IMG/VR virus record: IMGVR_UViG_3300043172_000001
Coordinates: 1-21,435 of that record
From: a virus
Reading direction: 5' to 3' (one strand)
DNA: 21,435 nt
The notes under the pieces were generated by a model. The model had not been told where the DNA came from, did not search any database, and saw only the letters and a program-made list of their open reading frames with translations. This document shows positions 2,319-18,636 of this stretch, in pieces. A program made the position numbers and the translations under genes. Each line of letters begins with the position of its first letter. The stretch's first letter is position 1.

Positions 2319-2723
2319 ATGAAACTAACAAGCATAATACTAATAATTTTCATATTTATTTCTTGCAGTCCTATTCAAAGGCATGCTCGGATAGTTAAAA
2401 AGTTTCCTTACGTTCATAGGGTAGATAGTGTTAAATTAATTGATACGATTAGGATAAACACGAATAAGGTTATTTTAGACACTGTAGTGCATAAAAATTA
2501 CTTACTCGACACAATTGTACTGACCAAAGATAATCTTACCGTAAAGGTTCTTAGATTCAGGGATTCGATATATATTAACGGAGAATGCGACACTATATTT
2601 GTTGAGAAAATAATTGAACGAAATATTCCAGTGAAGTATTACAAAGAAAATAAAAAGAATACATTTTACTGGCAAATTTTTGCTGTAATTTTGATATTAA
2701 TAATCATATATACTAAAAGATAA
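2319..2723 (+). CDS. Predicted unimolecular spanin (lipoprotein with C-terminal TM)
   Basis: The 134-residue protein begins with a lipoprotein signal, MKLTSIILIIFIFISC, with the lipidated Cys at position 16. The middle (about 20-112) is a soluble stretch rich in Val, Ile and Asp, with repeated D-T-I/V motifs (LIDTIRI, LDTVV, LDTIVL, CDTIFVEK), probably beta-stranded. It ends with a single TM helix, about residues 116-131, and a short basic tail. A lipid anchor in the outer membrane plus a C-terminal TM in the inner membrane is the layout of u-spanins such as T1 gp11, which fuse the two membranes in the last step of lysis. Its place right after holin-like and endolysin genes supports this. It is inferred from topology; I know no sequence motif for it. 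Confidence 0.75.
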   Translation: MKLTSIILIIFIFISCSPIQRHARIVKKFPYVHRVDSVKLIDTIRINTNKVILDTVVHKNYLLDTIVLTKDNLTVKVLRFRDSIYINGECDTIFVEKIIERNIPVKYYKENKKNTFYWQIFAVILILIIIYTKR

Positions 2724-2733
2724 TTTTTAGTAT
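2710..2733. promoter_or_regulatory. Inverted repeat overlapping promoter box (possible operator)
   Basis: ATACTAAAA (2710-2718) and TTTTAGTAT (2725-2733) form a perfect 9-base inverted repeat around a 6-base centre. The right arm overlaps the first three bases of the -7 box at 2731-2738. It could be a repressor or activator site, or an A/T-only hairpin at the end of the lysis operon. Confidence 0.35.
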
Positions 2734-2738
2734 CTTTG
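2731..2738 (+). promoter_or_regulatory. Bacteroidota-type -7 promoter box (TATCTTTG)
   Basis: TATCTTTG matches the Bacteroidota -7 consensus TAnnTTTG and lies 22 bases before the ATG of the first fibre gene, in a short gap between genes. No TTTG at the expected -33 spacing is visible, so it is either weak or uses another upstream signal. Confidence 0.5.
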
Positions 2739-2760
2739 TATAGTTTTAAAATAAAAAGAC

Positions 2761-3729
2761 ATGGCAATAATACCTGGAGGAAAAAGATTTATAGGAATAT
2801 CAGAGAGTGTAGACTTAAAAGAAAAAAAGTCAGCACTAATAAATTCAAAGACTGAACCGTACACAATGTCGGACATTGTAGATACTGTAGCAGCAAGTGG
2901 AGGTGGCGGTAAGTTTGTTGATGGAACGAACCCTTTAGACGCAGTTTACACAACTGGTAATGTAGGAATCGGAACAACAACACCAACTGAAGCTTTACAA
3001 GTAGTAGGAAAAATATCATTAAACGATGGTGGAAACTCTGTATATTTAGGAGAAAGTGCTGGTACAAATGATGTTACTGCGAACAATAGAAACGTAGGTA
3101 TTGGTGGAGAAGCATTGGATGCAAACACAACTGGAGTTAGTAACGTAGCTATCGGTTATCAATCCTTACGTCTTAACACAAATGGAGCTCAAAATGCATC
3201 GGTTGGAACTTTTTCTTTATGGAGCAATGTAGGAGGAGTAAGTAACACAGCTATTGGTTATCAGTCATTATTTTTTAACACAACAGGAAGTAATAACGTA
3301 GCAAGTGGATTACGTTCATTACGTTCTAATACATCCGCAAGTAGCAACGTAGCAATTGGATACGAAGCATTAAGTGATACCACGATTGGAAATAACAATG
3401 TAGCTTTAGGTACTCAGGCTGGGGATGTTAACACGACTGGAGAGAACAATGTTTTTTTAGGTACTCAGGCTGGGGATATTAACACGACTGGAGCGAATAA
3501 TGTTTTTTTAGGTGCTGGGTCAGGACCATTAAATATAAGTCAATCTAATCAGATTGTGATAGGATATCAAGCAGTAGGGAATGGAAGTAATACTGTAACG
3601 ATAGGAAATCCTAGTATAGTTGCAACTGTACTTAGAGGTACTTTAAACTTAGCTAACTTGCCAACTTCAGCTACTGGATTAAGTGCTGGAGATGTTTGGA
3701 GAAGTGGGAATGATTTAAAAATAGTATAA
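2761..3729 (+). CDS. Phage tail fibre with YadA-head-like repeats (paralogue 1)
   Basis: A 322-residue, probably trimeric fibre. Residues 1-46 are a short attachment-type N-terminus, followed by a Gly4 hinge (47-50) and KFVDGTNPLDAVYT. Next comes GNVGIGTTTPTEALQVVGKI, widespread in Bacteroidota surface and fibre proteins. From about 95 to 270 run degenerate 15-24 residue repeats of the form NxAIGxxAL..NTTGxx, typical of the beta-roll of trimeric autotransporter heads. The C-terminal 50 residues (QSNQIVIGYQAV, GNGSNTVTIGN, then GLSAGDVWRSGNDLKIV) match the end of the 7126 gene. No signal peptide. The protein probably binds or displays a receptor-binding tip. A -7 promoter box precedes it, so it may start its own transcript. 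Confidence 0.85.
   Translation: MAIIPGGKRFIGISESVDLKEKKSALINSKTEPYTMSDIVDTVAASGGGGKFVDGTNPLDAVYTTGNVGIGTTTPTEALQVVGKISLNDGGNSVYLGESAGTNDVTANNRNVGIGGEALDANTTGVSNVAIGYQSLRLNTNGAQNASVGTFSLWSNVGGVSNTAIGYQSLFFNTTGSNNVASGLRSLRSNTSASSNVAIGYEALSDTTIGNNNVALGTQAGDVNTTGENNVFLGTQAGDINTTGANNVFLGAGSGPLNISQSNQIVIGYQAVGNGSNTVTIGNPSIVATVLRGTLNLANLPTSATGLSAGDVWRSGNDLKIV
3405..3506 (+). repeat. 51-base in-frame tandem duplication in fibre gene
   Basis: Two neighbouring units, starting at 3405 and 3456, are nearly identical in DNA over TTTAGGTACTCAGGCTGGGG and on to AACACGACTGGAG, encoding LGTQAGDVNTTGEN and LGTQAGDINTTGAN. A third, diverged unit starts at 3507. The DNA identity is much higher than between other repeats of the gene, which points to a recent duplication that kept the frame (17 codons). 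Confidence 0.85.
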
Positions 3730-3742
3730 AAAACATAAAAAT

Positions 3743-3955
3743 ATGACATCAGAAGAAGTACAACAAAGCATATCTGCAGCTTACGATAGCGTAAATATTA
3801 TCAACGAAATGATATTAATAGAATCACCAACAGAAGATGATTTAGATATTATTAGAAGAAACAAGGAGCATCTTTCAATAATGATGGCTAAAACTTGGTT
3901 TGCTAAAGCTTTAACGTCTGAACAGACTGCAGAAATAAATAGTGTATCTTTGTAA
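3743..3955 (+). CDS. Small acidic helical protein between fibre genes
   Basis: A 70-residue, acidic, all-helical protein (MTSEEVQQSISAAYDSVNII, then EDDLDIIRRNKEHLSIMMAK and TWFAKALTSEQTAEINSVSL). It has no signal, TM or cysteine. The R-N-x-E-H-L-x-I-M-x-AK-x-W-F motif with a following ALTxEQ is a pattern I recall from small proteins located beside tail-fibre genes of aquatic phages. The position suggests a fibre-assembly or accessory role, but that is inference. The stop overlaps a -7 promoter box at 3945-3952. Confidence 0.75.
   Translation: MTSEEVQQSISAAYDSVNIINEMILIESPTEDDLDIIRRNKEHLSIMMAKTWFAKALTSEQTAEINSVSL
3945..3952 (+). promoter_or_regulatory. Bacteroidota-type -7 promoter box (TATCTTTG)
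   Basis: TATCTTTG lies 18 bases before the ATG of the 3971 gene. It falls inside the last codons of the upstream gene (coding Ser-Leu), so chance is a real possibility; the identical 8-mer and similar spacing to the other boxes are what support it. No -33 TTTG at normal spacing. Confidence 0.35.
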
Positions 3956-3970
3956 TTAAAAGAGATTACT

Positions 3971-4687
3971 ATGGGTAAAATAAGTCAATATACGAATGAC
4001 ACGGAAGTTGTGGGCTCTGACAGGTGGATTGGAACTGATTCACAGTCTAATAATTCTACTAAAAACTTTACAGCCCAAAAGGTAGCTAACTTTTTGAATG
4101 ATCAGAATCGTATTGACAATCCTGATTTACATTATAAGTTTCAAAATAAAACCGCTTTAGATACTAGAGACTCAGGAACAATATCTTTTGAAAATTCATT
4201 AGGGTCCTCAGTTCCTTTTAGTTCTGTATCTACATTTATGTTAAGCGAAAGACTGCTAGGAAATTCGTCAGATGTAAGTTCTTTTTATACTAATCCACTT
4301 ATAGGTGCTACCGTAATGATTAGTAATGGTAGTAATGTTTCTCAGTTTGGAATATACAAATGGGATTCATCGGTTCAAAATGTATTAGAACCTACATTCT
4401 ACGATATAGGATTAACCTATGCTACAGGGAACGGAAACTTAGTAAATAATAACAATTATATAGTTTCAATACTTTCTTATGGAGCAACTGGAGATAAAAA
4501 CTTTGTGTTTACTCAGACCGTAGCTTCTAACACTTGGACTATCAACCACACACTAGATAAATTTCCTTCGGTATCCGTTGTAGATTCAGCAGGAACTGAG
4601 GTGTTTGGTCAGGTACAATACGTAAACTTATCAAAAATAACCATAACATTTTCTTCAGCATTTGCAGGAGAGGCATTTTTAAACTAA
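3971..4687 (+). CDS. Fibre or receptor-binding protein with MGKIS N-terminal module
   Basis: The 238-residue protein starts with a module MGKISQYTNDTEVVGSDRWI, GTDSQSNNSTKNFTAQKVAN, shared in outline with the 8941 gene (MGKIS.Y.....V...D..VGTD...N.TK). The middle (about 60-170) is beta-rich and unassigned. The C-terminal 65 residues, from FVFTQTVASNTWTINHTLDK to FSSAFAGEAFLN, are a common tip domain of phage fibres (W-T-I-x-H-x-L-x-K-x-P-S-V-x-V-x-D-x-x-G, ending A-x-L-N). No signal peptide or TM. It is therefore a modular tail-fibre or tail-tip protein; the receptor cannot be told. A promoter box precedes it and the next fibre gene starts five bases after its stop. Confidence 0.75.
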   Translation: MGKISQYTNDTEVVGSDRWIGTDSQSNNSTKNFTAQKVANFLNDQNRIDNPDLHYKFQNKTALDTRDSGTISFENSLGSSVPFSSVSTFMLSERLLGNSSDVSSFYTNPLIGATVMISNGSNVSQFGIYKWDSSVQNVLEPTFYDIGLTYATGNGNLVNNNNYIVSILSYGATGDKNFVFTQTVASNTWTINHTLDKFPSVSVVDSAGTEVFGQVQYVNLSKITITFSSAFAGEAFLN

Positions 4688-4691
4688 AACA

Positions 4692-5588
4692 ATGGCAATA
4701 AAGTATCTAAACAACGTTTCGTTAGAGAATAATGAAATACAGAACGTAAAAATTCAAAATCTAGCATCAGACCCTGTAGTATCAGGTCAAGGACAGCTTA
4801 TTTTTAATACAGCTTCAACAGCTCTTAAATACTATGACGGTACTAGTTGGATATCTGTAGGGAGTTCTTCGGGTACTGTTACTTCTGTAGCAACAGGAGA
4901 GGGATTAACAGGAGGAACAATAAGCACTTCTGGAACGATAAGTTTAAAAAATGCTGCGGCATTTACAAACAATGCTATATTGAAATGGGATAATACTGGA
5001 ACTCAATTTATTGACTCCTCTATAGTGGATAGCGGAACTAATGTTACGATAACAGGAGGGTTAACTGTTACTGGTACTATAACAGGTACTGTAAGTACAG
5101 CAACTGCTTTAGCTACAGCTAGAAACTTCTCTATATCTGGAGATATGACATCGCCTACTGTTGCATTTGATGGAACTGCGAATGTTGTATTATCGAGTAC
5201 TTTAGCGACTGTTAACTCTAATGTAGGGACTTTTGGAACTGCATCATCTGTAGGGACTTTTACTGTAAATGGTAAAGGACTTATTACTGCAGCTTCTAGT
5301 ACGACTATAGCGATAACAGCATCACAGGTTACAGATTTTGCGACTGCTGTTGATACTGAGGTTGCAACAAGGGAGTTTGCTGCTAATATAGGAAATGGTA
5401 GTTTAACATCATACGTTGTTACTCATAATTTAGCTACTAGAGATGTTGCTGTTCAGTGTTACAATGCAACAACATTTGAGACAGTTTTTTTAAGTGTTGA
5501 AAGAACTACAACTAATACAATCACTCTGGCGACTACGGTTGCTCTTGCTACAGCAGCAGTTAGAGTAATAGTAACTAAAATAGGATAA
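4692..5588 (+). CDS. Tail fibre protein, Thr/Ser-rich shaft
   Basis: The 298-residue fibre begins with a module common in phage fibres, MAIKYLNNVSLENNEIQNVK, with GQLIFNTASTALKYYDGTSW at about 36-55. It continues with GTVTSVATGEGLTGGTISTS, a repetitive Thr/Ser/Gly/Ala shaft (about 60-225) and a C-terminal tip from about 233: IGNGSLTSYVVTHNLATRDV, VQCYNA, RVIVTKIG. The tip pattern G-x-G-x-x-T-S-x-x-V-x-H-N-L-x-T-R-D-V recurs in phage tail fibres. No catalytic motif. Low sequence complexity makes the shaft impossible to assign more closely. It lies between two other fibre genes, two bases from the next start. Confidence 0.8.
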   Translation: MAIKYLNNVSLENNEIQNVKIQNLASDPVVSGQGQLIFNTASTALKYYDGTSWISVGSSSGTVTSVATGEGLTGGTISTSGTISLKNAAAFTNNAILKWDNTGTQFIDSSIVDSGTNVTITGGLTVTGTITGTVSTATALATARNFSISGDMTSPTVAFDGTANVVLSSTLATVNSNVGTFGTASSVGTFTVNGKGLITAASSTTIAITASQVTDFATAVDTEVATREFAANIGNGSLTSYVVTHNLATRDVAVQCYNATTFETVFLSVERTTTNTITLATTVALATAAVRVIVTKIG

Positions 5589-5589
5589 T

Positions 5590-7113
5590 ATGCCAATAGA
5601 ATTTAAGGATTCGATAGATGTTGATGGAAATATAAAAGCAAGTCAAGCCTTTATTGACTCCAATGATTCTGCAGGAACTATAGGTCAAATATTAACATCT
5701 ACAGGTAGTGTAAGTCAGTGGTCTGATGTAGTACCAGGAGCGTCAACACTTGTAGAAATATCGTGTAAGAACACTTCAGGCGGAACTATAACAGTAGGTA
5801 CACCTGTATATCAAACAGGTACTGTTGGTGCAACAGCTACAATAGAGGTAGCTCCTGCAAATGCTTTAATAAGTGCAGGTAATTATCCAGCTATTGGATT
5901 ACTTAAAACTACATTAGTAAACAATGATATTGGCTTTGTGGTAATCACTGGAGAGTTAACAAATATTATAACATCTCCTATTGATGGAGTTGTTCCAACT
6001 ACAGGAGATACTATATATCTAAAATCAGGAGGAGGACTTACGTTAACTAAACCTACAGGAGAAGGTAACGCTATTCAAAACATGGGACTTGTTGGTAAGG
6101 TATCAACAGGAACTTCAGGTTCTATTACGGTGTCATCTATAATGAGGGCTAATGATGTTCCTAACCTTCCTGAAGGAAGAATTTGGATTGGAGATAGTAA
6201 TACATTAGTTTCTAATACAGTGTTCGTAGACGAGCCTAATTTAAGATTAGGAATAGGAACAACTGCACCTACACAAGCTTTAGATGTAAGAGGAAAGATA
6301 TCAGTTGTAGATGAGGAAAGTAATGTTTTTGTTGGTTACGATAGTGGTTTATCTGATTTAGGAGATAATCAAAATGTAGCTGTAGGAATTGAAACATTAA
6401 GAAATAATACAAACGGATATAACAATTTAGCTACTGGATATCAAGCACTGCGTAATAACACAACTGGATTTAACAATTCAGCTACTGGACATAGGGCAAT
6501 GCAAAACAACACAACTGGGCTGCAAAATACAGCTAGTGGTGCTACTGCATTAAGAAATAATACGACAGGACAAAGTAATGTTGCAAATGGATTTACCGCA
6601 TTACACAACAATATAACAGGTGGTGCTAATTCAGCAATTGGATTGTCTGCTGGATATTTTAATACTTCAGGAAATTTTAATACATCATGCGGTTATCAAT
6701 CTTTACTTAACAATACAACTGGAGCTAATAACACAGCAATAGGAAGTTCTTCTGGGTCTTTTAATTCAAATGGTTCTGGTAACACAACTGGAAGTAACAG
6801 CGTGTTTCTTGGCTTCGATACAAGACCATTAAATTCAGGACAAACCAATCAAATTGTAATAGGTCATAGTGCGATTGGAATAGGTTCAAACTCAGTTGTA
6901 TTAGGGAATGATAGTATTACTAAAACTTTATTGAGAGGTAATGTATCTACTGATGGAAGTGTGCAAGTTGGAGATAACACAGATAGTGCTACAGCTTCAA
7001 ATGTAGGTGCAATGAGATACAGCACGGATGGTTCAGCAAGTTATGTAGATATGTCTATGGAGGTAGCAAGTGGTACTTATGAGTGGGTTAACATAATTAC
7101 AAATACATTTTAA
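5590..7113 (+). CDS. Long tail fibre with beta domain plus YadA-head-like repeats (paralogue 2)
   Basis: The largest fibre here, 507 residues. Residues 1-46 form an attachment module (IEFKDSIDVDGNIKASQAFI). Residues 52-200 form a beta domain with NTSGGTITVGTPVYQTG and GDTIYLKSGGGLTLTKP, a pattern seen in other phage fibres. From about 215, LGIGTTAPTQALDVRGKI introduces roughly ten repeats of the NxATGxxALRNNTTGxx type, to about 430 (QTNQIVIGHSAIG). The C-terminus is a separate tip, GAMRYSTDGSASYVDMSMEV and EWVNIITNTF, unlike the ends of paralogues 1 and 3. No signal peptide or enzyme motif. It probably forms a trimeric fibre with its own receptor-binding or cap domain. Confidence 0.85.
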   Translation: MPIEFKDSIDVDGNIKASQAFIDSNDSAGTIGQILTSTGSVSQWSDVVPGASTLVEISCKNTSGGTITVGTPVYQTGTVGATATIEVAPANALISAGNYPAIGLLKTTLVNNDIGFVVITGELTNIITSPIDGVVPTTGDTIYLKSGGGLTLTKPTGEGNAIQNMGLVGKVSTGTSGSITVSSIMRANDVPNLPEGRIWIGDSNTLVSNTVFVDEPNLRLGIGTTAPTQALDVRGKISVVDEESNVFVGYDSGLSDLGDNQNVAVGIETLRNNTNGYNNLATGYQALRNNTTGFNNSATGHRAMQNNTTGLQNTASGATALRNNTTGQSNVANGFTALHNNITGGANSAIGLSAGYFNTSGNFNTSCGYQSLLNNTTGANNTAIGSSSGSFNSNGSGNTTGSNSVFLGFDTRPLNSGQTNQIVIGHSAIGIGSNSVVLGNDSITKTLLRGNVSTDGSVQVGDNTDSATASNVGAMRYSTDGSASYVDMSMEVASGTYEWVNIITNTF

Positions 7114-7125
7114 AAAATATATAAT

Positions 7126-8310
7126 ATGGCTAAAAAATATACATCCGATTTGTTTGTAAAAAATGGAGGTACTGAGTCTGAGTTCTTAATGGCTGATGGT
7201 AGTGTTTCCTCTGGTGGTGGTGGTGGTGGTAAATTTGTAGATGGAACAGACCCATTAAATGCAGTTTATACAGATGGAAACGTAGGTATTGGAACGGTTA
7301 CGCCATCTGCACCTTTAGAAGTAAGTGGTCGAATATCACAAATAGGATTAGGTAACTCAACTTTTTTAGGAGAATTTGCTGGTTTAAATGATGATGGAAC
7401 AAATAACAATAATGTAGCGATAGGATACGAAGCGTTGAAAAATAATGTTAGTGGTCCAACTAACGTAGCTATTGGTCAAGATGCTTTAAAAAATAATACT
7501 ACTGGTCAAGATAATGTAGCGATAGGAAACGGAGCATTAGTTTCAAATAATGGTCCAACTAATGTAGCAGTTGGTAGAAGTTGTTTATTAAGTAATCAAA
7601 CTGGAGGATACAATATAGCTTTAGGACTTCAAGCTATGAGTAGTGGGAACAAAGGCTGGAACAATATAGCTTTAGGTCAAAATGCTTTACAGACTTCAAA
7701 TAATTCAGCAAGTAATAACGTAGGAATAGGAGTAAAAGCTGGTCAAATTTCAAACGGTACTAACAATGTCTTTATCGGTTCAAGTGCTGGCATGCAACAA
7801 CAGAACGGAAATTCTAAAGTTGCTATTGGAGAAAATGCTGGAGCAAATGCTTCTGGTAATAATTCAGTCGGAATAGGTAAATACGGAGGTTATAATAATA
7901 GTGGTAACTCTTCTGTTGGAATAGGAGAAAATGCTGGTTTCGGTAACTCCGGAGCATATCAAATTGCAATAGGTCAGTATGCTGGATTAAATAATGCTGG
8001 AGCGTATAATATTAATATAGGAAGACAAGCTGGAATTTATGGTCCAGGATATGCAATTAATACAAATGGAACTAACTCGCTATTTATTGGTAGAGATACA
8101 CAACCAGCAACAACAAGCGATACAAATCAAACGGTAATAGGATACCAAGCAATAGGATATGGAAGTAATTCTGTAACATTGGGTAATGATTCGGTGGTAT
8201 TAACCGTTCTAAAAGGAGTTATAAGAATGACTGGAGTACCATCTTCAGATGCTGGATTAGATGTTGGGGATGTTTGGCAAGATGGAGGAACGTTAAAAAT
8301 AGTAACATAA
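7126..8310 (+). CDS. Tail fibre with YadA-head-like repeats (paralogue 3)
   Basis: A 394-residue fibre built like the 2761 gene: a short N-terminus, a Gly6 hinge (residues 30-35), KFVDGTDPLNAVYTDGNVGI with GTVTPSAPLEVSGRI, then about 16 repeats of NVAIGxxAL..NTTGQD or NSVGIG..AG..NSG type (about 90-345). It ends with SDTNQTVIGYQAIGYGSNSV and GLDVGDVWQDGGTLKIVT, the same tip as paralogue 1. The second half of the repeat region is shorter-period and richer in Ala-Gly-Asn (GENAGFGNSGAYQIAIG), so the beta-roll geometry may change there. No signal peptide. Shared ends but different repeat content suggest a duplicated fibre that has diverged in its shaft. Confidence 0.85.
   Translation: MAKKYTSDLFVKNGGTESEFLMADGSVSSGGGGGGKFVDGTDPLNAVYTDGNVGIGTVTPSAPLEVSGRISQIGLGNSTFLGEFAGLNDDGTNNNNVAIGYEALKNNVSGPTNVAIGQDALKNNTTGQDNVAIGNGALVSNNGPTNVAVGRSCLLSNQTGGYNIALGLQAMSSGNKGWNNIALGQNALQTSNNSASNNVGIGVKAGQISNGTNNVFIGSSAGMQQQNGNSKVAIGENAGANASGNNSVGIGKYGGYNNSGNSSVGIGENAGFGNSGAYQIAIGQYAGLNNAGAYNINIGRQAGIYGPGYAINTNGTNSLFIGRDTQPATTSDTNQTVIGYQAIGYGSNSVTLGNDSVVLTVLKGVIRMTGVPSSDAGLDVGDVWQDGGTLKIVT
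7213..7230 (+). repeat. (GGT)6 trinucleotide repeat encoding Gly6 hinge
   Basis: Six perfect GGT codons encode the hinge between the N-terminal attachment module and the fibre body of paralogue 3. The paralogue at 2761 has four Gly codons, mixed in sequence, at the same place. Slippage here would change hinge length without breaking the frame. Confidence 0.85.
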
Positions 8311-9961: not shown

Positions 9962-10525
9962 ATGAAATCACCATTTTACTTTATTGCTCAACCAATAAAC
10001 GGTAAGAGATACAATAATACAAAAGAAATTGGAGGATTAGATTTTATAACAAGTTCTTCTGAAGAGGATCACAGCTACTCAAATAGAGAAGCTGAAGTTA
10101 TATCTACCCCATTAGGTTATAATGGACCTATATCGAAAGGAGATAAACTCTTAGTACACCACAATGTTTTTAAATTTTACAATGATATGCAGGGTCGTCA
10201 GAAAAGCGGAAGAAGCTTTCTGAAGGATAACTTGTTTATGATAGATTCTGAACAGTTCTTTATGTATAAGAATGGTGCAGAATGGAAAGCGTATGACAGG
10301 TATTGTTTTGTTGAGCCTATTGATACAGAAGGGTCTTATCTGTATAAAAACATATCTAAAGAGCCTCTTGTTGGAATAATGAGATATCCTAATGAATACT
10401 TATTAAGTGAAGGGATAAATGAAGGTGACAAGGTATCCTTTACTCCTGAAAGCGAATATAAGTTTAATGTAGAAGGTGTAGAAATGTACCGTATTTATGA
10501 CCATCAAATAACAATTAAATTATGA
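9962..10525 (+). CDS. GroES-like co-chaperonin candidate
   Basis: The 187-residue protein looks like two GroES-type beta barrels in tandem. First barrel: EAEVISTPLGYNGPISKGDK at about 43-62 and LVHHNVFKFYNDMQGRQKSG at 64-83, with KDNLFMID and YDRYCFVEPI before the join. Second: PLVGIMRYPNEYLLSEGINE at 135-154, then GDKVSFTPESEYKFNVEGVE at 155-174 and MYRIYDHQITIKL at the end. The order G-x-V/I..P...L...G(I/V)..GD.V.F, followed by x-x-Y-R-x-x-x-x-I, fits the Cpn10 fold. Phage co-chaperonins (T4 Gp31-type) cap GroEL to fold the capsid protein; here the gene sits just before the head module. It overlaps the next gene by four bases (ATGA). Fold is inferred by pattern, not by a motif that is diagnostic alone. 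Confidence 0.65.
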   Translation: MKSPFYFIAQPINGKRYNNTKEIGGLDFITSSSEEDHSYSNREAEVISTPLGYNGPISKGDKLLVHHNVFKFYNDMQGRQKSGRSFLKDNLFMIDSEQFFMYKNGAEWKAYDRYCFVEPIDTEGSYLYKNISKEPLVGIMRYPNEYLLSEGINEGDKVSFTPESEYKFNVEGVEMYRIYDHQITIKL

Positions 10526-11088
10526 TAAATACTTTAGATAATTTTTTAGATAAAGAAACCTATGATTCGACATATCAAAAACTATTAGATAATGACTTTA
10601 TAGAAATATCATTAGGAGATAAGAATTTTCGTGTTCAGAATAGCGATAAGGATTTTAACGACATGATATTGAAAAAAATTTCTGTCATTGAAGGTGTTGA
10701 AAGAGAATGTCTTTTAGGATTTTTTAGAGTAGCAACAGAAGACTTTGATACTGATTGGAGAATACATGCAGACTCAAATGTAGGAGATATTAGTCCAGAA
10801 AGAGCACTTGTTCTATATATATCTCCATCCACCAAAAAAGGGCTACATGGAACTGCTTTTTGGAAACATAAGGAAAAGGGATATCAAATACCTGATGATT
10901 TTACTAACGAAGAGTTTGACAAGTTTCTTTTAGAGGAATCTAATAACTTAGATAGCTGGGAGCTTCATTCAGTAATTGGGTATAGACCTAATCGAGCTCT
11001 TATGTATCCTTCTGTTTACTTTCATAGTAAATATCCTAATACAGGATGGGAAGGAGGAAGAATGGTGTATGTAATGTTTTATAAATAA
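10522..11088 (+). CDS. 2-oxoglutarate/Fe(II)-dependent dioxygenase family protein
   Basis: A 188-residue protein with the iron-binding triad of 2OG dioxygenases: His82-x-Asp84 (DWRIHADS), distal His168 (SVYFHSKYP) and Arg180 (EGGRMVYVMFYK), the likely 2-oxoglutarate contact. Between them, ERALVLYISPSTKKGLHGTA and PNRALMYPS are beta strands of the double-stranded barrel typical of this fold. These enzymes hydroxylate or otherwise oxidise a protein, nucleic acid or small substrate; related genes are frequent in marine phages. The substrate is unknown. It starts within the stop of the co-chaperonin gene (ATGA), so the two are probably co-translated, and lies 18 bases before the packaging module. 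Confidence 0.8.
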   Translation: MINTLDNFLDKETYDSTYQKLLDNDFIEISLGDKNFRVQNSDKDFNDMILKKISVIEGVERECLLGFFRVATEDFDTDWRIHADSNVGDISPERALVLYISPSTKKGLHGTAFWKHKEKGYQIPDDFTNEEFDKFLLEESNNLDSWELHSVIGYRPNRALMYPSVYFHSKYPNTGWEGGRMVYVMFYK

Positions 11089-11106
11089 TTATATAACAAT
11101 TAAATT

Positions 11107-11400
11107 ATGATGGACTCAAACGAATTAAGAGCTGAAATTATAAAGGCAGGAAGAAGAGCTGTAGAAGAATTAATTAAGGTAGCTAAAGAATCTATAGTTG
11201 GTTTAGATATGGAGGATGACTTAGCTGCGGACAAGCTGAAGAATGCTGCTGCTGCAAAAAAACTTGCTATATTTGATGCTTTCGAGATACTATCTAGGAT
11301 AGATTCTGAGGAAGATAATTTAAAGGAAAATTCAGGAGAAGTTATTAATCAAAAAAAATCAAGTGGTGGATTCGCAGAAAAACGAGCTTCAGGGAAGTAA
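11107..11400 (+). CDS. Candidate terminase small subunit
   Basis: A 97-residue, mainly helical, charged protein: ELRAEIIKAGRRAVEELIKV at about 5-25, then DDLAADKLKNAAAAKKLAIF and DAFEILSRIDSEEDN, ending in a basic, Gly/Ser-rich tail (KKSSGGFAEKRASGK). It lies directly upstream of the large terminase, with a 38-base overlap, where the small terminase is usual, so it may recognise DNA ends or the pac site. No helix-turn-helix is obvious, so this is inference from position. I recall the AADKLKNAAAAKKLAIFDA-like stretch in other flavobacterial phages beside terL. An in-frame ATG three bases later (11110) could be the start instead. Confidence 0.75.
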   Translation: MMDSNELRAEIIKAGRRAVEELIKVAKESIVGLDMEDDLAADKLKNAAAAKKLAIFDAFEILSRIDSEEDNLKENSGEVINQKKSSGGFAEKRASGK

Positions 11401-13624
11401 TCTTTACAGAGTTCTTGAGGATTATGTTTCTGAGTCAAAAATACGAAGCAAGAATAAAAAATCTTCTTGGAAGTATGGATATGATGAGGAATTTGATTTA
11501 ATCATTATATCTAAAGATGGTACTCTAGGTGAGATTGTCATGATTAACGATTTAGTTATTGGACTTCCTTCTAATCCTATTAGAGCGAACTCAAGGAGTA
11601 CAAAGTCTGAAAATCAATACTGGGAGCGAGAGGATATCCCTAGGGAATTGGCTAAGATTAAATCTATATTTCAATGGAATGAAATGCACAGTTCTTTTAA
11701 AGATAAGTGGGTTGAGTATATTGAAAAAGAATTTGACAATAGAGAGTTAGGGTATTGGTTCATGAATAATGGATTGCCTACTTATATAACTGGAGCGCAC
11801 TACATGTATTTGCAATGGACAAGTATTGACATTGGTTATCCTGATTATAGGGATGCTAACAGAATACTTTTTTTACATTGGGAAGCATGTAAGGCTGACA
11901 AACGGAGTTTTGGTCAAGATTATTTAAAGATAAGGCGTTCAGGGTTTTCTTTTATGAGTTCTTCTGAATGTGTAAACACTGGTACTCTGGCTAAAGATGC
12001 TAGGGTTGGTATTTTATCTAAGACAGGTGGTGATGCCAAGAAAATGTTTACCGATAAAGTTGTTCCAATATCTACAAGATTACCATTTTTTTTTAAGCCT
12101 ATTCAGGATGGTATGGATAAACCAAAAACTGAATTAGCGTTTAGAGTTCCGGCATCTAAGATTACAAAAAAGAATATGTCGAACGCTACTGAAGAAGAGT
12201 TCGAGGGATTAGATACTACGATAGATTGGAAGAATACAGATGACAACTCCTATGATGGGGAAAAGTTGTTACTGCTTGTTCATGATGAATCTGGTAAGTG
12301 GTTAAAGCCAAATAATATACTAAACAACTGGCGTGTAACAAAAACTTGTTTACGTTTGGGTAGTAAGATTATAGGGAAGTGTATGATGGGTTCTACTTCG
12401 AATGCACTCAGTAAAGGTGGAGAAAATTTCAAGAAATTATATGATGATTCTAAAGTAACTAGTAGAAATGCCAATGGGCAAACCAAAAGTGGTTTGTATT
12501 CTCTTTTTATTCCTATGGAGTATAATATGGAGGGTTTTATAGACATATATGGTATGCCTGTCTTTAGAAAGCCTGATAAACCTATTCAAGGAGTGGATGG
12601 GGAACTTATAAAGAATGGTGCTTTAGACTATTGGGAGGCAGAAGTGGATTCTCTTAAGAACGACCCTGACGCATTAAATGAATTTTACAGGCAATTTCCT
12701 AGAACGGAATCTCATGCGTTTAGAGATGAGAGTAAGCAATCTTTGTTTAATCTTACTAAGATATATCAGCAGATTGATTATAATGATTCTTTGATACAAG
12801 ACAGGCATGTAACTAGGGGTTCATTTCATTGGAAAGATGGTTTGAAAGATACTAAGGTTGTATTTAGTCCTGACCAGAGAGGTAGATTTTATGTTAGCTG
12901 GACACCCAAGAAGTCTTTACAGAATAATACTATTACTAAGAATGGAATTAAGTATCCAGGAAACGAACATATAGGTTCTTTCGGTTGTGATAGCTACGAT
13001 ATATCAGGTACTGTTGGTGGAGGTGGTTCTAATGGTTCTCTTCATGGACAGACTAAGTTTAATATGGATGACGCACCAAGTAATTCGTTTTTCTTAGAAT
13101 ATATAGCTAGACCTCAAACGGCAGAGATGTTTTTTGAAGATGTACTAATGGCATGTGTGTTTTACGGTATGCCTATACTAGCAGAGAATAATAAACCAAG
13201 ATTATTATATCATTTTAAGAATAGAGGTTATAGAGGGTTCTCAATGAATAGACCTGATAAGGTTTATAACAAGCTCTCTAAGACAGAGAAAGAACTCGGA
13301 GGCATACCTAACTCATCAGAAGACATAAAACAGTCTCATGCATCAGCTATTGAGTCTTACATTGAAAAACATATTGGTTTTGATGTTGATGGAACTTACA
13401 GAGATTCTGATGAAATAGGTGATATGCCTTTCAACAGAACTCTTCAAGATTGGGCTAAATTTGATATTAACAATAGAACTAAACACGATGCCTCTATTAG
13501 TTCTGGATTAACCATAATGGCGAATCAAAAAAACCTATACACACCTCAAAAAACAGAGTCAAAAATAAGTATTAACTTTGCAAGGTATAGCAATGATAGC
13601 TCACGAAGTAAAATAATTAGATGA
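11363..13624 (+). CDS. terL: Terminase large subunit
   Basis: A 753-residue packaging motor. The ATPase has a deviant Walker A KIRRSGFS at 189-196, Walker B LLLLVHDE at 302-309 with Asp308/Glu309, and a coupling motif GSTSN at 343-347. The C-terminal RNase H-like nuclease has an early Asp543 (GSFGCDSYDISG) and a late Asp709 (TKHDASISSGL). It pumps DNA into the prohead and cuts it. No ATG is available upstream: the frame opens after TAA at 11321-11323 and the first start is GTG at 11363 (or 11366), overlapping the small subunit by 38 bases, which is unusual. The family shows many non-canonical Walker A sequences. Portal follows with an ATGA overlap. Length is on the long side for TerL but normal for crAss-like phages. 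Confidence 0.9.
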   Translation: MVDSQKNELQGSNLYRVLEDYVSESKIRSKNKKSSWKYGYDEEFDLIIISKDGTLGEIVMINDLVIGLPSNPIRANSRSTKSENQYWEREDIPRELAKIKSIFQWNEMHSSFKDKWVEYIEKEFDNRELGYWFMNNGLPTYITGAHYMYLQWTSIDIGYPDYRDANRILFLHWEACKADKRSFGQDYLKIRRSGFSFMSSSECVNTGTLAKDARVGILSKTGGDAKKMFTDKVVPISTRLPFFFKPIQDGMDKPKTELAFRVPASKITKKNMSNATEEEFEGLDTTIDWKNTDDNSYDGEKLLLLVHDESGKWLKPNNILNNWRVTKTCLRLGSKIIGKCMMGSTSNALSKGGENFKKLYDDSKVTSRNANGQTKSGLYSLFIPMEYNMEGFIDIYGMPVFRKPDKPIQGVDGELIKNGALDYWEAEVDSLKNDPDALNEFYRQFPRTESHAFRDESKQSLFNLTKIYQQIDYNDSLIQDRHVTRGSFHWKDGLKDTKVVFSPDQRGRFYVSWTPKKSLQNNTITKNGIKYPGNEHIGSFGCDSYDISGTVGGGGSNGSLHGQTKFNMDDAPSNSFFLEYIARPQTAEMFFEDVLMACVFYGMPILAENNKPRLLYHFKNRGYRGFSMNRPDKVYNKLSKTEKELGGIPNSSEDIKQSHASAIESYIEKHIGFDVDGTYRDSDEIGDMPFNRTLQDWAKFDINNRTKHDASISSGLTIMANQKNLYTPQKTESKISINFARYSNDSSRSKIIR

Positions 13625-16056
13625 GAGAAGTAAAAATATCCATAAAAACAGAAAGTTTTCCAGACCAATTTATAAAAGATTCCGTAAAAGCTACCCCTTC
13701 ATTTGGTCTTCAAATAGGTCAGGCTATTCAATACGAGTGGTTTAGAGGTCAAGGAGCAAGTTCAAGGTTTTACGACCAACAAAGAGAATTTCATAGAAGA
13801 AGAATTTATGCTAGAGGTGAGCAATCTGTAGCTAAATACAAGAATGAATTAGCTGTAGATGGAGATTTATCTTACCTTAATTTAGATTGGACTCCGGTTC
13901 CTATTCTACCTAAATTTGTAGATATAGTTGTTAACGGAATGTCTGATAGATTATTCAAGGTAAAAGCTTATTCTCAAGATGCTATGTCTCAGGAAAAGAG
14001 AAATTCATTTCAAGAAAACATACTAGGGCAGATGTTAGTTAAGCCTATTTTAGAAGATATGCAGGCTGAGACAGGAGTAAATCCTTTCAGTATGAATCCT
14101 GATGAGTTACCTAAAGATGATGATGAACTATCTTTATATATGCAGCTTAATTATAAGCCTGCTATTGAAATAGCTGAAGAGCAAGCGATTAACACTCTTT
14201 TAGACGAAAACAACTATAACGATTTAAGAAAACGACTGGATTACGATGCTACTGTTTTAGGTATTTCTATTGCTAAGCATGAGTTTTTATTAGGAGAAGG
14301 AGTGAGGGTTTCATACGTTGACCCTGCTAATGTTGTTTATAGTTACACAGAAGACCCTTACTTTAAAGATTGCTTTTATTGGGGAGAGGTAAAGACTGTT
14401 CCTGTGACGGAATTAGTTAAGATTGATCCTACATTAGAAACTGATGATTTAAAAAAGATTTCTGAATACAGTCAGAGTTGGTATGATTATACGAACCAAT
14501 CACAGAGACAAGATAATGATATTTTTACTAGAGACACTTGCACTCTTTTATATTTCAATTATAAAACAACTAAAAAAGTAGTTTATAAAAAGAAAGTTTC
14601 TGAATCAGGTAGTATTAAGATGATACAAAAGGATGATAATTTTAATCCTCCTGCTGAAATGTTAGAAGATGGAAATTTTGAAAAAATAGAAAAAACTATA
14701 GACGTTTGGTATGATGGTGTAATGGTAATGGGTACAGATATCATACTTAAGTGGGAGATGTCTGAAAATATGGTGAGACCTAAATCATCATCTCAGCATG
14801 CTATACCAAATTATATAGCAGTTGCTCCAAGAATGTACAAAGGTAATATTGAGTCTTTAGTTACAAGAATGATTCCGTTTGCTGACTTGATTCAAATTAG
14901 TCACTTAAAAATACAACAGGTTATTGCGAAAGTAGTTCCTGATGGTGTTTTTATTGATGCAGATGGTCTTAATGAAGTAGATTTAGGGACAGGAGCTTCG
15001 TACAATCCAGAGGATGCTTTAAGATTATATTTCCAAACAGGTTCTGTTATTGGTAGGTCTTATACTCAAGACGGAGATTTTAACAACGCAAGAGTTCCAA
15101 TTACACAACTTACATCTAGTTCTGGTGCAAGTAAGATGCAGATGCTTATAGGGAACTATAATCATTACATGGATATGATTCGTAATGTTACTGGGTTAAA
15201 TGAAGCAAGAGATGGTTCTAAGCCTGATTCAAATGCTTTGGTTGGTGTGCAGAAGTTAGCAGCACTTAATTCTAATACAGCTACTAGACATATACTTGAT
15301 GGTAGTCTTTATATTTACAAGACTTTATCAGAAGCTTTGACTTATAGAATTGCTGATATATTAGAATATTCTGATTTCAAAGAAGATTTTATAAATAAGA
15401 TTGGTAAATATAATGTTGGTATATTGGATCAGATTTCTGATTTGTATATTTATGATTTCGGAATTTTTGTTGAGATTGCACCTGATGAAGAACAGAGAGC
15501 TAAGCTAGAAGAGAACATACAAGTTGCTTTATCTCAAGGAGGTATAGATTTAGAAGATGCTATTGATATTAGAGAAATGAGAAATATTAAATTAGCCAAT
15601 CAGTTATTGAAACTGAAAAGAGTAAGAAAGCAAGAAAAAGCAGAGCAACAGGCTATGCAGGCTCAGGCTATGCAATCTCAGATGCAGATGCAGGTGCAAC
15701 AGATAGCTGCTCAGACTGCGGCTCAGAAGATACAGTTAGAATCTGAATCTAAGATACAGGTTAAAACAGTAGAGAATAACCTTGATATGCAAAAATTAGA
15801 AAGAGAAGCTGCTTTAAAAATGGAGTTAATGGATAAGGAGTTTAATCTTCAGATGAGTCTAAAGGGTGTGGAAATTAATTCTATACAGAAAAAAGATGAT
15901 AAGAAAGAAGAAGCTAAATCAAAAAGAATTAGTCAACAAAATACAGAGCAATCAAAATTAATCGAGCAAAGAAAAAATAATTTAGCACCTGTCAATTTTG
16001 AATCTAACGAAGACAGCCTTGATGGTTTTGACTTCGCTGAGTTCGAACCTAGATAA
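13621..16056 (+). CDS. Portal protein
   Basis: The 811-residue protein forms the twelve-fold vertex ring through which DNA enters. It follows terL and overlaps it by ATGA. The N-terminal part has the layout of Bacteroidota phage portals: EFHRRRIYARGEQSVAKYK at about 58-76 and LNLDWTPVPILPKFVDIVVN at about 86-105, a phrase I know from crAss-like portals. The centre holds the wing/stem region, including NVTGLNEARDGSKPDSNALVG. From about 660 there is a Gln/Met-rich coiled coil (EQQAMQAQAMQSQMQMQVQQ, 120 residues) and a charged C-terminal tail (NEDSLDGFDFAEFE). The long tail may reach into the capsid or scaffold. No catalytic function. Confidence 0.85.
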   Translation: MREVKISIKTESFPDQFIKDSVKATPSFGLQIGQAIQYEWFRGQGASSRFYDQQREFHRRRIYARGEQSVAKYKNELAVDGDLSYLNLDWTPVPILPKFVDIVVNGMSDRLFKVKAYSQDAMSQEKRNSFQENILGQMLVKPILEDMQAETGVNPFSMNPDELPKDDDELSLYMQLNYKPAIEIAEEQAINTLLDENNYNDLRKRLDYDATVLGISIAKHEFLLGEGVRVSYVDPANVVYSYTEDPYFKDCFYWGEVKTVPVTELVKIDPTLETDDLKKISEYSQSWYDYTNQSQRQDNDIFTRDTCTLLYFNYKTTKKVVYKKKVSESGSIKMIQKDDNFNPPAEMLEDGNFEKIEKTIDVWYDGVMVMGTDIILKWEMSENMVRPKSSSQHAIPNYIAVAPRMYKGNIESLVTRMIPFADLIQISHLKIQQVIAKVVPDGVFIDADGLNEVDLGTGASYNPEDALRLYFQTGSVIGRSYTQDGDFNNARVPITQLTSSSGASKMQMLIGNYNHYMDMIRNVTGLNEARDGSKPDSNALVGVQKLAALNSNTATRHILDGSLYIYKTLSEALTYRIADILEYSDFKEDFINKIGKYNVGILDQISDLYIYDFGIFVEIAPDEEQRAKLEENIQVALSQGGIDLEDAIDIREMRNIKLANQLLKLKRVRKQEKAEQQAMQAQAMQSQMQMQVQQIAAQTAAQKIQLESESKIQVKTVENNLDMQKLEREAALKMELMDKEFNLQMSLKGVEINSIQKKDDKKEEAKSKRISQQNTEQSKLIEQRKNNLAPVNFESNEDSLDGFDFAEFEPR

Positions 16057-17211: not shown

Positions 17212-18636
17212 ATGTCAGTACAAGCGACACCAGGGTTTAACTTACAGCCAAGTGCTGAGCAAGTAGCTCTACAATCAAACTACATTACCGATTTCGATTT
17301 TTTGAATCAGTATCTTCCAGATACTTATGAGAAAGAATTTGAAAGATATGGTAATAGAACAGTATCTTCATTCTTAAGAATGGTAGGAGCTGAAATGCCT
17401 TCTAACTCAGACCTTATCAAATGGGCAGAGCAAGGAAGACTACACATTAAATATGTAAACTGTACAACTACAGTTTTAGTAAACGCAGATACAACTACGT
17501 TTACGATTAACGATACATTAAATCCTGGTACAGGAGGTATCGCTATAAGAGTAGGTCAAACAATAATGTTGACGCCTAAAACTGTTGCTCCTTTAGCTAC
17601 AGCTACAGTAAACAAAGCAATTGTAACTGCTGTTGATACTGCTGCAGGGACTATCGAGGTAGCGTTCTACGAAGCAAACGGTATGAGTAACAGTGATGCT
17701 GCTACTATCTATGAAGTATTTATCTATGGTTCTGAATTCAAAAAAGGAACTACAGGAATGGAAGGTTCTTTAGAGGCTGACGATGAAATATTCGAAAACT
17801 CTCCAATTATCTTAAAAGATAAGTACGCAGTATCAGGTTCTGATATGGCTCAAATTGGATGGGTTGAAGTAACTACTGAAAACGGAGCTAACGGATACCT
17901 TTGGTATTTGAAGTCTGAGCATGAAACTCGTTTGAGATTTGATGACTACTTGGAAACTTCAATGATTGAAGCTGTTCCTGCTGCTACTAATTCAGGTGCT
18001 GCAGCGGCTACAGGTATTGTTGGAAACAAAGGTTCTGAAGGTGTATTCTATTCTGTTGAAAACAGAGGAAATGTATGGGCAGGAGCTAACCCTTCTGATT
18101 TAGCAGCCTTTGATACTATCATTCAAAGATTAGATAAGCAAGGTGCTATTGAAGAGAATGTATTATTCTTGGATAGAGAATTTGGTTTCAATATCGATGA
18201 TATGTTAGCAGAGCAAAACTCTTACGGTTCAGGAGGTTCATCTTACGGTCTTTTCGATAATGACAAAGAGATGGCTCTTAACTTAGGATTCACAGGATTC
18301 AGAAGAGGATACGATTTCTACAAGTCAGATTGGAAATACTTAAACGACCCAACAATGAGAGGTGGATTGGTAAATGGTAAAATCAACGGACTATTAGTTC
18401 CTGCAGGTTCTACTACTGTTTATGACCAAATCATGGGTAAAAACGCTAAGAGACCATTCTTACATGTTCGTTACAGAGCATCAGAGACTGAGAACAGACG
18501 TTACAAAACTTGGATGACAGGTTCAGCAGGAGGAGCTTCAAATAGTGATTTAGATGCTATGGAGGTTAACTTCTTGTCTGAGAGAGCTGTATGTACATTA
18601 GGTGCAAACAACTTCTTCTTATTCAAACAAGCATAA
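17212..18636 (+). CDS. Major capsid protein
   Basis: The 474-residue protein is placed after the scaffold-like gene and is the capsid protein of the HK97 type by context and sequence. The N-terminal half contains LNQYLPDTYEKEFERYGNRT (about 32-51) and SSFLRMVGAEMPSNSDLIKW, EQGRLHIKY, a block I know from crAss-like capsid proteins. An Ala/Thr-rich beta insertion (about 85-175) follows. Then GTTGMEGSLEADDEIFENSP and GANGYLWYLKSEHETRLRFD lead to the P/A-domain region (GFRRGYDFYKSDWKYL, AVCTLGANNFFLFKQA). Codons are C-ending for Asn, Phe and Tyr more often than in neighbours, fitting very high expression. No SD, an A-rich leader instead; an intrinsic terminator follows. Confidence 0.9.
   Translation: MSVQATPGFNLQPSAEQVALQSNYITDFDFLNQYLPDTYEKEFERYGNRTVSSFLRMVGAEMPSNSDLIKWAEQGRLHIKYVNCTTTVLVNADTTTFTINDTLNPGTGGIAIRVGQTIMLTPKTVAPLATATVNKAIVTAVDTAAGTIEVAFYEANGMSNSDAATIYEVFIYGSEFKKGTTGMEGSLEADDEIFENSPIILKDKYAVSGSDMAQIGWVEVTTENGANGYLWYLKSEHETRLRFDDYLETSMIEAVPAATNSGAAAATGIVGNKGSEGVFYSVENRGNVWAGANPSDLAAFDTIIQRLDKQGAIEENVLFLDREFGFNIDDMLAEQNSYGSGGSSYGLFDNDKEMALNLGFTGFRRGYDFYKSDWKYLNDPTMRGGLVNGKINGLLVPAGSTTVYDQIMGKNAKRPFLHVRYRASETENRRYKTWMTGSAGGASNSDLDAMEVNFLSERAVCTLGANNFFLFKQA

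Follow-up and report, generated by a model that had tools for sequence, protein, structure and literature searches.

In the phages studied here, the slot between a gene for a co-chaperonin lid and the terminase gene may be a chaperonin-coupled protein-modification site, whose enzyme would act on a folding client (the capsid protein) or on the chaperonin, and we give this reading a probability of about 0.45. The computed results that bear on it are the domain folds, the catalytic residues, the overlap of the two genes, the exchange of the oxygenase (A) as a cassette, the alternation of a second oxygenase (B) and SET proteins in the slot, and the loss of catalytic residues from B beside A. The window, that is, the whole stretch of DNA analysed, is a 21-kb fragment (21,435 nucleotides), and the statements on GroEL come from the records of its relatives. 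A preliminary description of this window had proposed a co-chaperonin and a 2OG dioxygenase in one coupled pair before the head genes. The two open reading frames were confirmed as such a pair at the coordinates of Table 1, with the four-base ATGA at 10522-10525 common to the end of the lid gene and the start of oxygenase A. The proposed H82-x-D84, H168 and R180 were all present when the translation was counted, and PHROGs placed the terminase, portal and virion structural proteins downstream of the pair.

Table 1. Features of the lid and oxygenase A genes and of their surroundings in the window.
Feature	Coordinates	Strand	Details
Co-chaperonin (lid) gene	9962..10525	+	187 aa, ATG start
Lid domain 1	about residues 1-106		predicted Cpn10 fold, in tandem with domain 2
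Lid domain 2	about residues 107-187		predicted Cpn10 fold, in tandem with domain 1
19-bp direct repeat, copy 1	10508..10526	.	lid gene end / oxygenase start
Oxygenase A gene	10522..11088	+	188 aa, ATG start
H82-A83-D84 (predicted iron ligands)	codons 10765..10773	+	H82 10765-10767, D84 10771-10773; H82 and D84 invariant in 27 sequences
H168 (predicted third iron ligand)	codon 11023..11025	+	nearly invariant in 27 aligned relatives
R180 (predicted 2OG-binding arginine)	codon 11059..11061	+	invariant in 27 aligned relatives
19-bp direct repeat, copy 2	11093..11111	.	spans the start of the following gene and the bases ahead of it
Small gene	11107..11400	+	97 aa; phrog_20415, E 3e-4; downstream bound of the slot; overlaps terminase
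Terminase large subunit	11363..13624	+	phrog_6681, E 1e-178; head genes begin here
Portal protein	13621..16056	+	phrog_6547, E 4e-145
Virion structural protein	17212..18636	+	phrog_13704, E 2e-102

The lid protein belongs to PHROG 13932, "co-chaperonin GroES" (E 2e-25), and its AlphaFold2 model, built with 50 aligned sequences, reached a mean pLDDT of 82.4 and a pTM of 0.77. The top whole-length structural match was 7ekq_R, which is named "Cpn20 co-chaperonin subunit" in the PDB (Z 10.1, rmsd 4.6, 161 residues, over residues 1-187). Residues 107-187 matched single GroES/Cpn10 chains at Z 8-9 (8wuc_a: Z 9.0, rmsd 2.6, 78 aligned; 1aon_O: Z 8.2), and T4 gp31 (1g31) matched the second domain at Z 6.2. 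At the level of sequence, GroES was the top match of the lid family profile among PDB sequences, a weak one (E 0.057, residues 127-182). The second half of the phi38:1 homologue exceeded the Pfam Cpn10 cut-off (24.1 bits vs 21.1), three relatives closer to the window lid stayed under it (PF00166, 14.7-15.6 bits), and the window lid itself gave no match in Pfam, including PF00166. On the strength of the Cpn20 structural match, the Cpn10/GroES matches and the phi38:1 second half, the prediction that the first protein is a tandem, Cpn20-like lid of the Cpn10 fold is well supported, and the two GroES-like halves that had been read from the sequence were recovered in a model resembling Cpn10. An alignment of the two halves with hhalign found no sequence similarity except a GD motif; a sequence proof of internal duplication was thus dropped, and the tandem reading leans on the model and the Cpn20 match. 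In Cpn10/GroES proteins, a hydrophobic tripeptide in the flexible mobile loop binds GroEL. The low-confidence loops of the lid model lie at about residues 20-40 and 121-130, the consensus of the first being GGIEFIV, and domain 1 has a conserved HHNxF...KSG..F stretch.

Chloroplast and apicoplast Cpn20 likewise consist of two Cpn10-fold domains head to tail, and a separate Cpn10 and GroEL occur alongside the lid as in chloroplasts (PMC5780408, in excerpt). Unlike Cpn20, the window lid is phage-encoded, shows 11% identity in the structural alignment, bears the domain 1 stretch given above and has a short second loop, and its assembly into a ring is predicted. The comparison with T4 Gp31-type co-chaperonins, which had been made in advance, held for the Cpn10 fold and failed for the type: gp31 is a single domain, whereas this lid is a tandem of 187 aa in a clade that brings its own GroEL and ordinary Cpn10. 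What it shares with T4 gp31 and other phage Cpn10 lids is a phage-encoded Cpn10 fold near the head genes, and capsid-folding phage lids are known. The GroES proteins of the Cellulophaga phage phi38:1 and of elemo and Panino (PHROG 13932) are true relatives with 34-36% identity in the same pre-terminase position; they are already annotated as GroES/cpn10, and there no enzyme lies between lid and terminase.

The lid is a core gene of its phage clade. It has at least 592 relatives, and 77 phage records carry one, 68 of them from Flavobacterium phages; in four named annotated records (MW202828, Panino, elemo and phi38:1) it stands ahead of the terminase. GroEL and a separate ordinary Cpn10 were found alongside the lid in 17/17 records of at least 59 kb. 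In a 28-record set that includes fragments, each had matches above the cut-off in 16/28, and a search for the ordinary Cpn10 within the 21-kb window gave no match. Phage GroEL is already known in the lid-bearing phage group (PMC5332604; PMC11590407, both in excerpt). In chloroplasts, Cpn10 and Cpn20 are reported to form seven-domain rings jointly (excerpts of PMC5780408 and PMC3542282), and by analogy mixed rings of Cpn10 and tandem lid may be formed in these phages. In the open-licence literature searched, we recognised no phage with a tandem Cpn20-like lid beside GroEL and Cpn10.

Oxygenase A matched DUF6445 (PF20043) with 25.8 bits, above the cut-off of 24, and its AF2 model had a mean pLDDT of 88.8. 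The model adopted the double-stranded beta-helix oxygenase fold, with Z values of 12.6-13.9 across the 50 structural matches listed, nearly all of which are named 2OG/Fe oxygenases. The nearest PDB neighbours were OGFOD1, PiuC (a Pseudomonas iron-uptake oxygenase), Pseudomonas P4H, PHD2, chlorella virus vCPH and mimivirus L230, and the P4H-EF-Tu complex and Tpa1 were also among the best. The H-D-H-R residues were present in 85/89 A rows (duplicates included), and two loci (L165, L166) have Y at the position of H168. From its model, oxygenase A is a DUF6445-like 2OG/Fe(II) oxygenase for which turnover is predicted. It shares the fold, the HxD...H iron triad and the 2OG arginine with PHD2/P4H/OGFOD1, vCPH and L230, but differs from them in its low identity (about 10-16%) and in being phage-encoded in one unit with a co-chaperonin. 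SnoN, OkaE and AlkB were also among the matches listed, with Z within 1.4 of the prolyl and lysyl hydroxylases and thus nearly tied. Since protein, small-molecule and AlkB enzymes score so closely, the fold suggests rather than shows a protein substrate, and the near tie of small-molecule and DNA enzymes counts against the reading preferred here.

A PDB sequence search with the oxygenase profile gave chance matches only, and the genome contig scan found no cellular relatives of oxygenase A (29 pattern matches, 0 confirmed). The PHROG labels "minor coat protein" (1644) and "DNA endonuclease V" (274) for these oxygenases look wrong and were not adopted, as the model, the Pfam matches and the residues indicate a 2OG oxygenase; in Panino (PP540027, 70501-71067), a 2OG oxygenase bears the "minor coat protein" label. 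The oxygenase A at L061:3565-4128 looks mosaic, with an L068-like N-terminal part and an L026-like C-terminal part, which suggests exchange inside the gene. Pelagiphages of the HTVC023P type, a podovirus group, also combine a core GroES with several 2OG-Fe(II) oxygenases, but there the oxygenases are reported as paired with ferrochelatase, not with GroES (PMC9599517, in excerpt). The open-licence literature searched yielded no protein-modifying enzyme that we could recognise as translationally coupled to a co-chaperonin, and no study of DUF6445 or of phage SET proteins that target the capsid.

The lid and its partner enzyme recur across many phages, as the preliminary description had asked to be checked, but the partner varies. 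Among the matches listed, 205 distinct loci remained from 285 after removal of identical stretches. The most frequent layouts were lid-B (84), lid-A (57) and an empty slot (40), followed by lid-B-amidase (6), lid-A-B (5), SET before lid (5; four directly upstream, and in L185 about 5 kb upstream) and A before lid (2). Single cases were lid-SET, lid-amidase, lid-A at a contig end, lid-A-amidase, lid-B-SET and amidase-lid-A-B. These frequencies are biased to near relatives, because only the best 80 were kept from each list of relatives (at least 592 for the lid gene, then 343, 231 and 180) and because slot members served to build the scans anchored on A and B. The lid-anchored scan (best 80 of at least 592) gave 67 distinct loci: 40 empty, 17 with B, five with A, two with A and B, and one each with SET, with amidase and B, and with amidase. 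Neither A nor B was found when they were sought in the near-full-length empty-slot genomes G003 (62.9 kb), MW202828 and phi38:1. An obligate pair of lid and oxygenase was therefore ruled out by the 40/67 empty loci and by complete relatives that have neither A nor B. Where an oxygenase follows, the four-base overlap is constant among the matches listed, from lid to A in 66/66 and from lid to B in 91/91 distinct loci; where the lid gene lies directly before the small gene, a four-base motif of this kind stands at its end in 27/42. The pairing is not due to chance, given at least 592 lid relatives and an ATGA overlap in 66/66 distinct type A loci. The coupling is real, recurrent and optional, and several relatives break the linkage.

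Oxygenase A is an optional cassette. In the window it is flanked by a perfect 19-bp direct repeat, and locus L002 represents the empty site, having no oxygenase and a single repeat copy with one mismatch. The two are otherwise almost the same DNA, with 3697/3701 identical bases downstream of the junction and 1261/1291 upstream. In the divergent locus L083, on the other hand, the oxygenase differs from that of the window at 4/567 positions (a 99% block), while the lid differs at 171/560 and the small gene plus terminase at 549/2518; near-identity extends from one repeat to the other (10505 to 11110). The simplest reading of these alignments is that the oxygenase would have been precisely gained, lost or exchanged between phages, with no direction assigned. 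The other A loci lack such a flanking repeat (longest common stretch 8 bp or less), and eight B rows have one of 10 bp. A 35-bp "repeat" in L173 and L174, where the two genes are 7 bases apart, was discarded as an artefact, because the search windows overlapped there.

The main rival is an insertion hot spot, in which the junction of the lid gene with the terminase genes would merely tolerate insertions by recombination and the oxygenase would be a moron with an unrelated target (host metabolism, nucleotides, iron or defence). The repeats with the empty site in L002, the L083 exchange confined to the oxygenase block, and a phage that lacks the oxygenase with a 99.9% identical terminase all speak for it, as do the amidase, which uses the slot in 8/205 distinct architectures listed, and the A homologues located elsewhere. 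In elemo (NC_055853), the A homologue is separated from the lid gene by about 28 kb and from GroEL by 20 kb, and in Gundel it lies amid unrelated genes with no chaperonin gene annotated nearby. Against a mere hot spot, the slot strongly favours two oxygenases and SET, catalytic residues were lost from B exactly where A is present, SET overlaps a canonical Cpn10 at a second site, and the Panino oxygenase is near GroEL. We consider the hot spot less likely than the modification site.

The loss of residues from B concerns a second, unlike 2OG oxygenase of 157-158 aa. Three members scored 25.8, 23.4 and 21.7 bits against PF13640 (cut-off 27) and a fourth scored 27.2; the similarity of B to A is only distant (hhalign E 0.003, probability 11%). 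Among the matches listed, the H-D-H-R residues were kept in 69/71 distinct B proteins without A, the last histidine being replaced by Y or Q in the two exceptions (L312, L279), and in 0/6 of those with A. Two intact B rows that are cut off upstream (L292, L324) stand outside the 71, and a broken B frame without A (L031) was counted by its longer piece. The association of B loss with A presence gave a Fisher's p of 1.2e-7, in which related proteins are treated as independent. The companion A genes of the residue-less B were intact in five cases, with L276 and L322 outside the check. The B tree requires at least two changes, with a warning of long branches, and the lost residues differ among the L026 type, the L068 type and L322. 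The dN/dS of pseudo-B was 0.15-0.19 (four pairs) vs 0.06-0.10 for intact B (three pairs), and these ratios indicate that pseudo-B is still under constraint. It seems that A replaces B. This residue loss in the presence of A is a natural experiment suggesting the same job for A and B; we infer that they share it and that the inactive B retains a non-catalytic role, perhaps as a partner of A.

The slot also receives SET proteins, and these have a second link to the chaperonin. Four of them exceeded the PF00856 cut-off of 22.4 bits (L024 34.0, L186 30.5, L182 48.6, L180 26.1). In L186, an ordinary Cpn10 (4058-4327) overlaps GroEL (2512-4083) at one end and, by GTGA, a SET gene (4324-4695) at the other, and L185 has the same GroEL-Cpn10-SET layout. 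In Panino, an A-type oxygenase (71067-70501) is followed by one gene and then by GroEL (70126-68516), all on the same strand. Both the SET gene overlapping Cpn10 behind GroEL and the Panino oxygenase near GroEL count in favour of a modification site tied to the chaperonin. In L180 (1257-2088), an intact oxygenase B is directly followed by a SET-domain gene downstream of the lid.

Under the preferred reading of a chaperonin-coupled modification site, the tandem lid would work with the phage-encoded GroEL to fold head proteins, probably in mixed rings with the ordinary Cpn10 of the phage, as chloroplast Cpn20 does with Cpn10. The active 2OG/Fe(II) protein oxygenase would be an optional cassette co-translated with the lid; being translated together with it, the oxygenase would share the place and time of the lid's synthesis. 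Its target for hydroxylation (or demethylation) would be a protein at the chaperonin: in the likeliest case a head-protein client, otherwise GroEL or a lid. The product of 17212..18636 is likely the major capsid protein, from its gene position, and is a candidate client. Here the activity of the enzyme, its protein substrate, the chaperonin client, the timing and the hetero-oligomer are what we infer. The pair hints that these phages chemically modify proteins during folding.

Several results count against this modification site. Most lid genes have no partner enzyme (the 40/67 empty loci given above, from the best 80 of at least 592), A homologues lie away from the lid in elemo and Gundel, and the slot amidase is no protein modifier. 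Moreover, the neighbouring genes of the window and L002 hardly differ despite the presence or absence of the oxygenase, and the lid domains have no mutual sequence similarity beyond GD. The earlier idea of an oxygenase that targets a virion protein or folding gains circumstantial evidence from B and SET in the slot, the SET-Cpn10 overlap and Panino, but the pairing from which it was drawn is not obligatory and is broken in elemo. A comparison of virion masses can address the substrate, as the window and L002 are near-identical with and without the oxygenase. A more elaborate picture, in which a chloroplast-like chaperonin set (GroEL, Cpn10 and the tandem lid) is joined to an exchangeable modification station, hydroxylases of two unlike kinds or a lysine methyltransferase, co-translated with the lid, modify the capsid protein during its folding (or the chaperonin), and the old hydroxylase is kept as a non-catalytic partner subunit once a new one arrives, can be put forward only tentatively.

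Protein modification is known in this phage group from another direction. Mass spectrometry showed that GroEL and a putative capsid protein of phi38:1 are lysine-methylated in infected cells and virions, and none of the three phages studied is known to encode a methyltransferase, as stated in the excerpt of that report (PMC13288928, 2026). Relatives in the present clade encode SET proteins, one of which overlaps Cpn10 behind GroEL. Because phi38:1 has neither A nor B, those data, as excerpted, speak to the plausibility of client or chaperonin modification and not to the oxygenase. They also lend something to another explanation, in which the oxygenases are demethylases with JmjC-like chemistry that strip host-applied methyl groups from capsid or GroEL, with SET doing the opposite. 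SET and the oxygenases do use one slot, and adjoin once (L180). We regard this antagonism as improbable, since prolyl and lysyl hydroxylases (OGFOD1, PHD2, P4H, vCPH, L230) lead the 50 structural matches listed and phi38:1 itself, in which the methylation was seen, lacks both oxygenases. No JmjC enzyme was among those 50 matches, which does not exclude them. According to Table 3 of the same excerpted report (PMC13288928), a methylated phage GroEL peptide occurred in free-virion samples of phi38:1, which raises the possibility that virions carry the chaperonin along.

In the least probable explanation, the oxygenase would modify a component of the translation machinery, either EF-Tu or a ribosomal protein, as Pseudomonas P4H or OGFOD1/Tpa1 do, and shared late expression would be its only link to the lid. 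The top structural neighbours listed do include OGFOD1, Tpa1 and the P4H-EF-Tu complex, and EF-Tu is one of the host proteins highlighted for methylation during Cellulophaga infection (PMC13288928, in excerpt), but the Z values are tied with many other enzymes and the link of SET and oxygenases to chaperonin genes is left unexplained.

The region around the pair showed further features. The terminase ORFs of Panino, elemo and phi38:1 have about 120 additional aa and no annotated small gene beside them, which suggests that the small gene may be a split-off N-terminus of the terminase. At eight loci (L046, L114, L116, L122, L150, L151, L153 and L247), the terminase matches are split by about 0.8-0.95 kb, as if the gene were interrupted by an intron or homing element. 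Upstream in the window, the proteins encoded at 2761-3729, 5590-7113 and 7126-8310 have NNVAIG-type repeats in common and are likely paralogous fibre or adhesin proteins.
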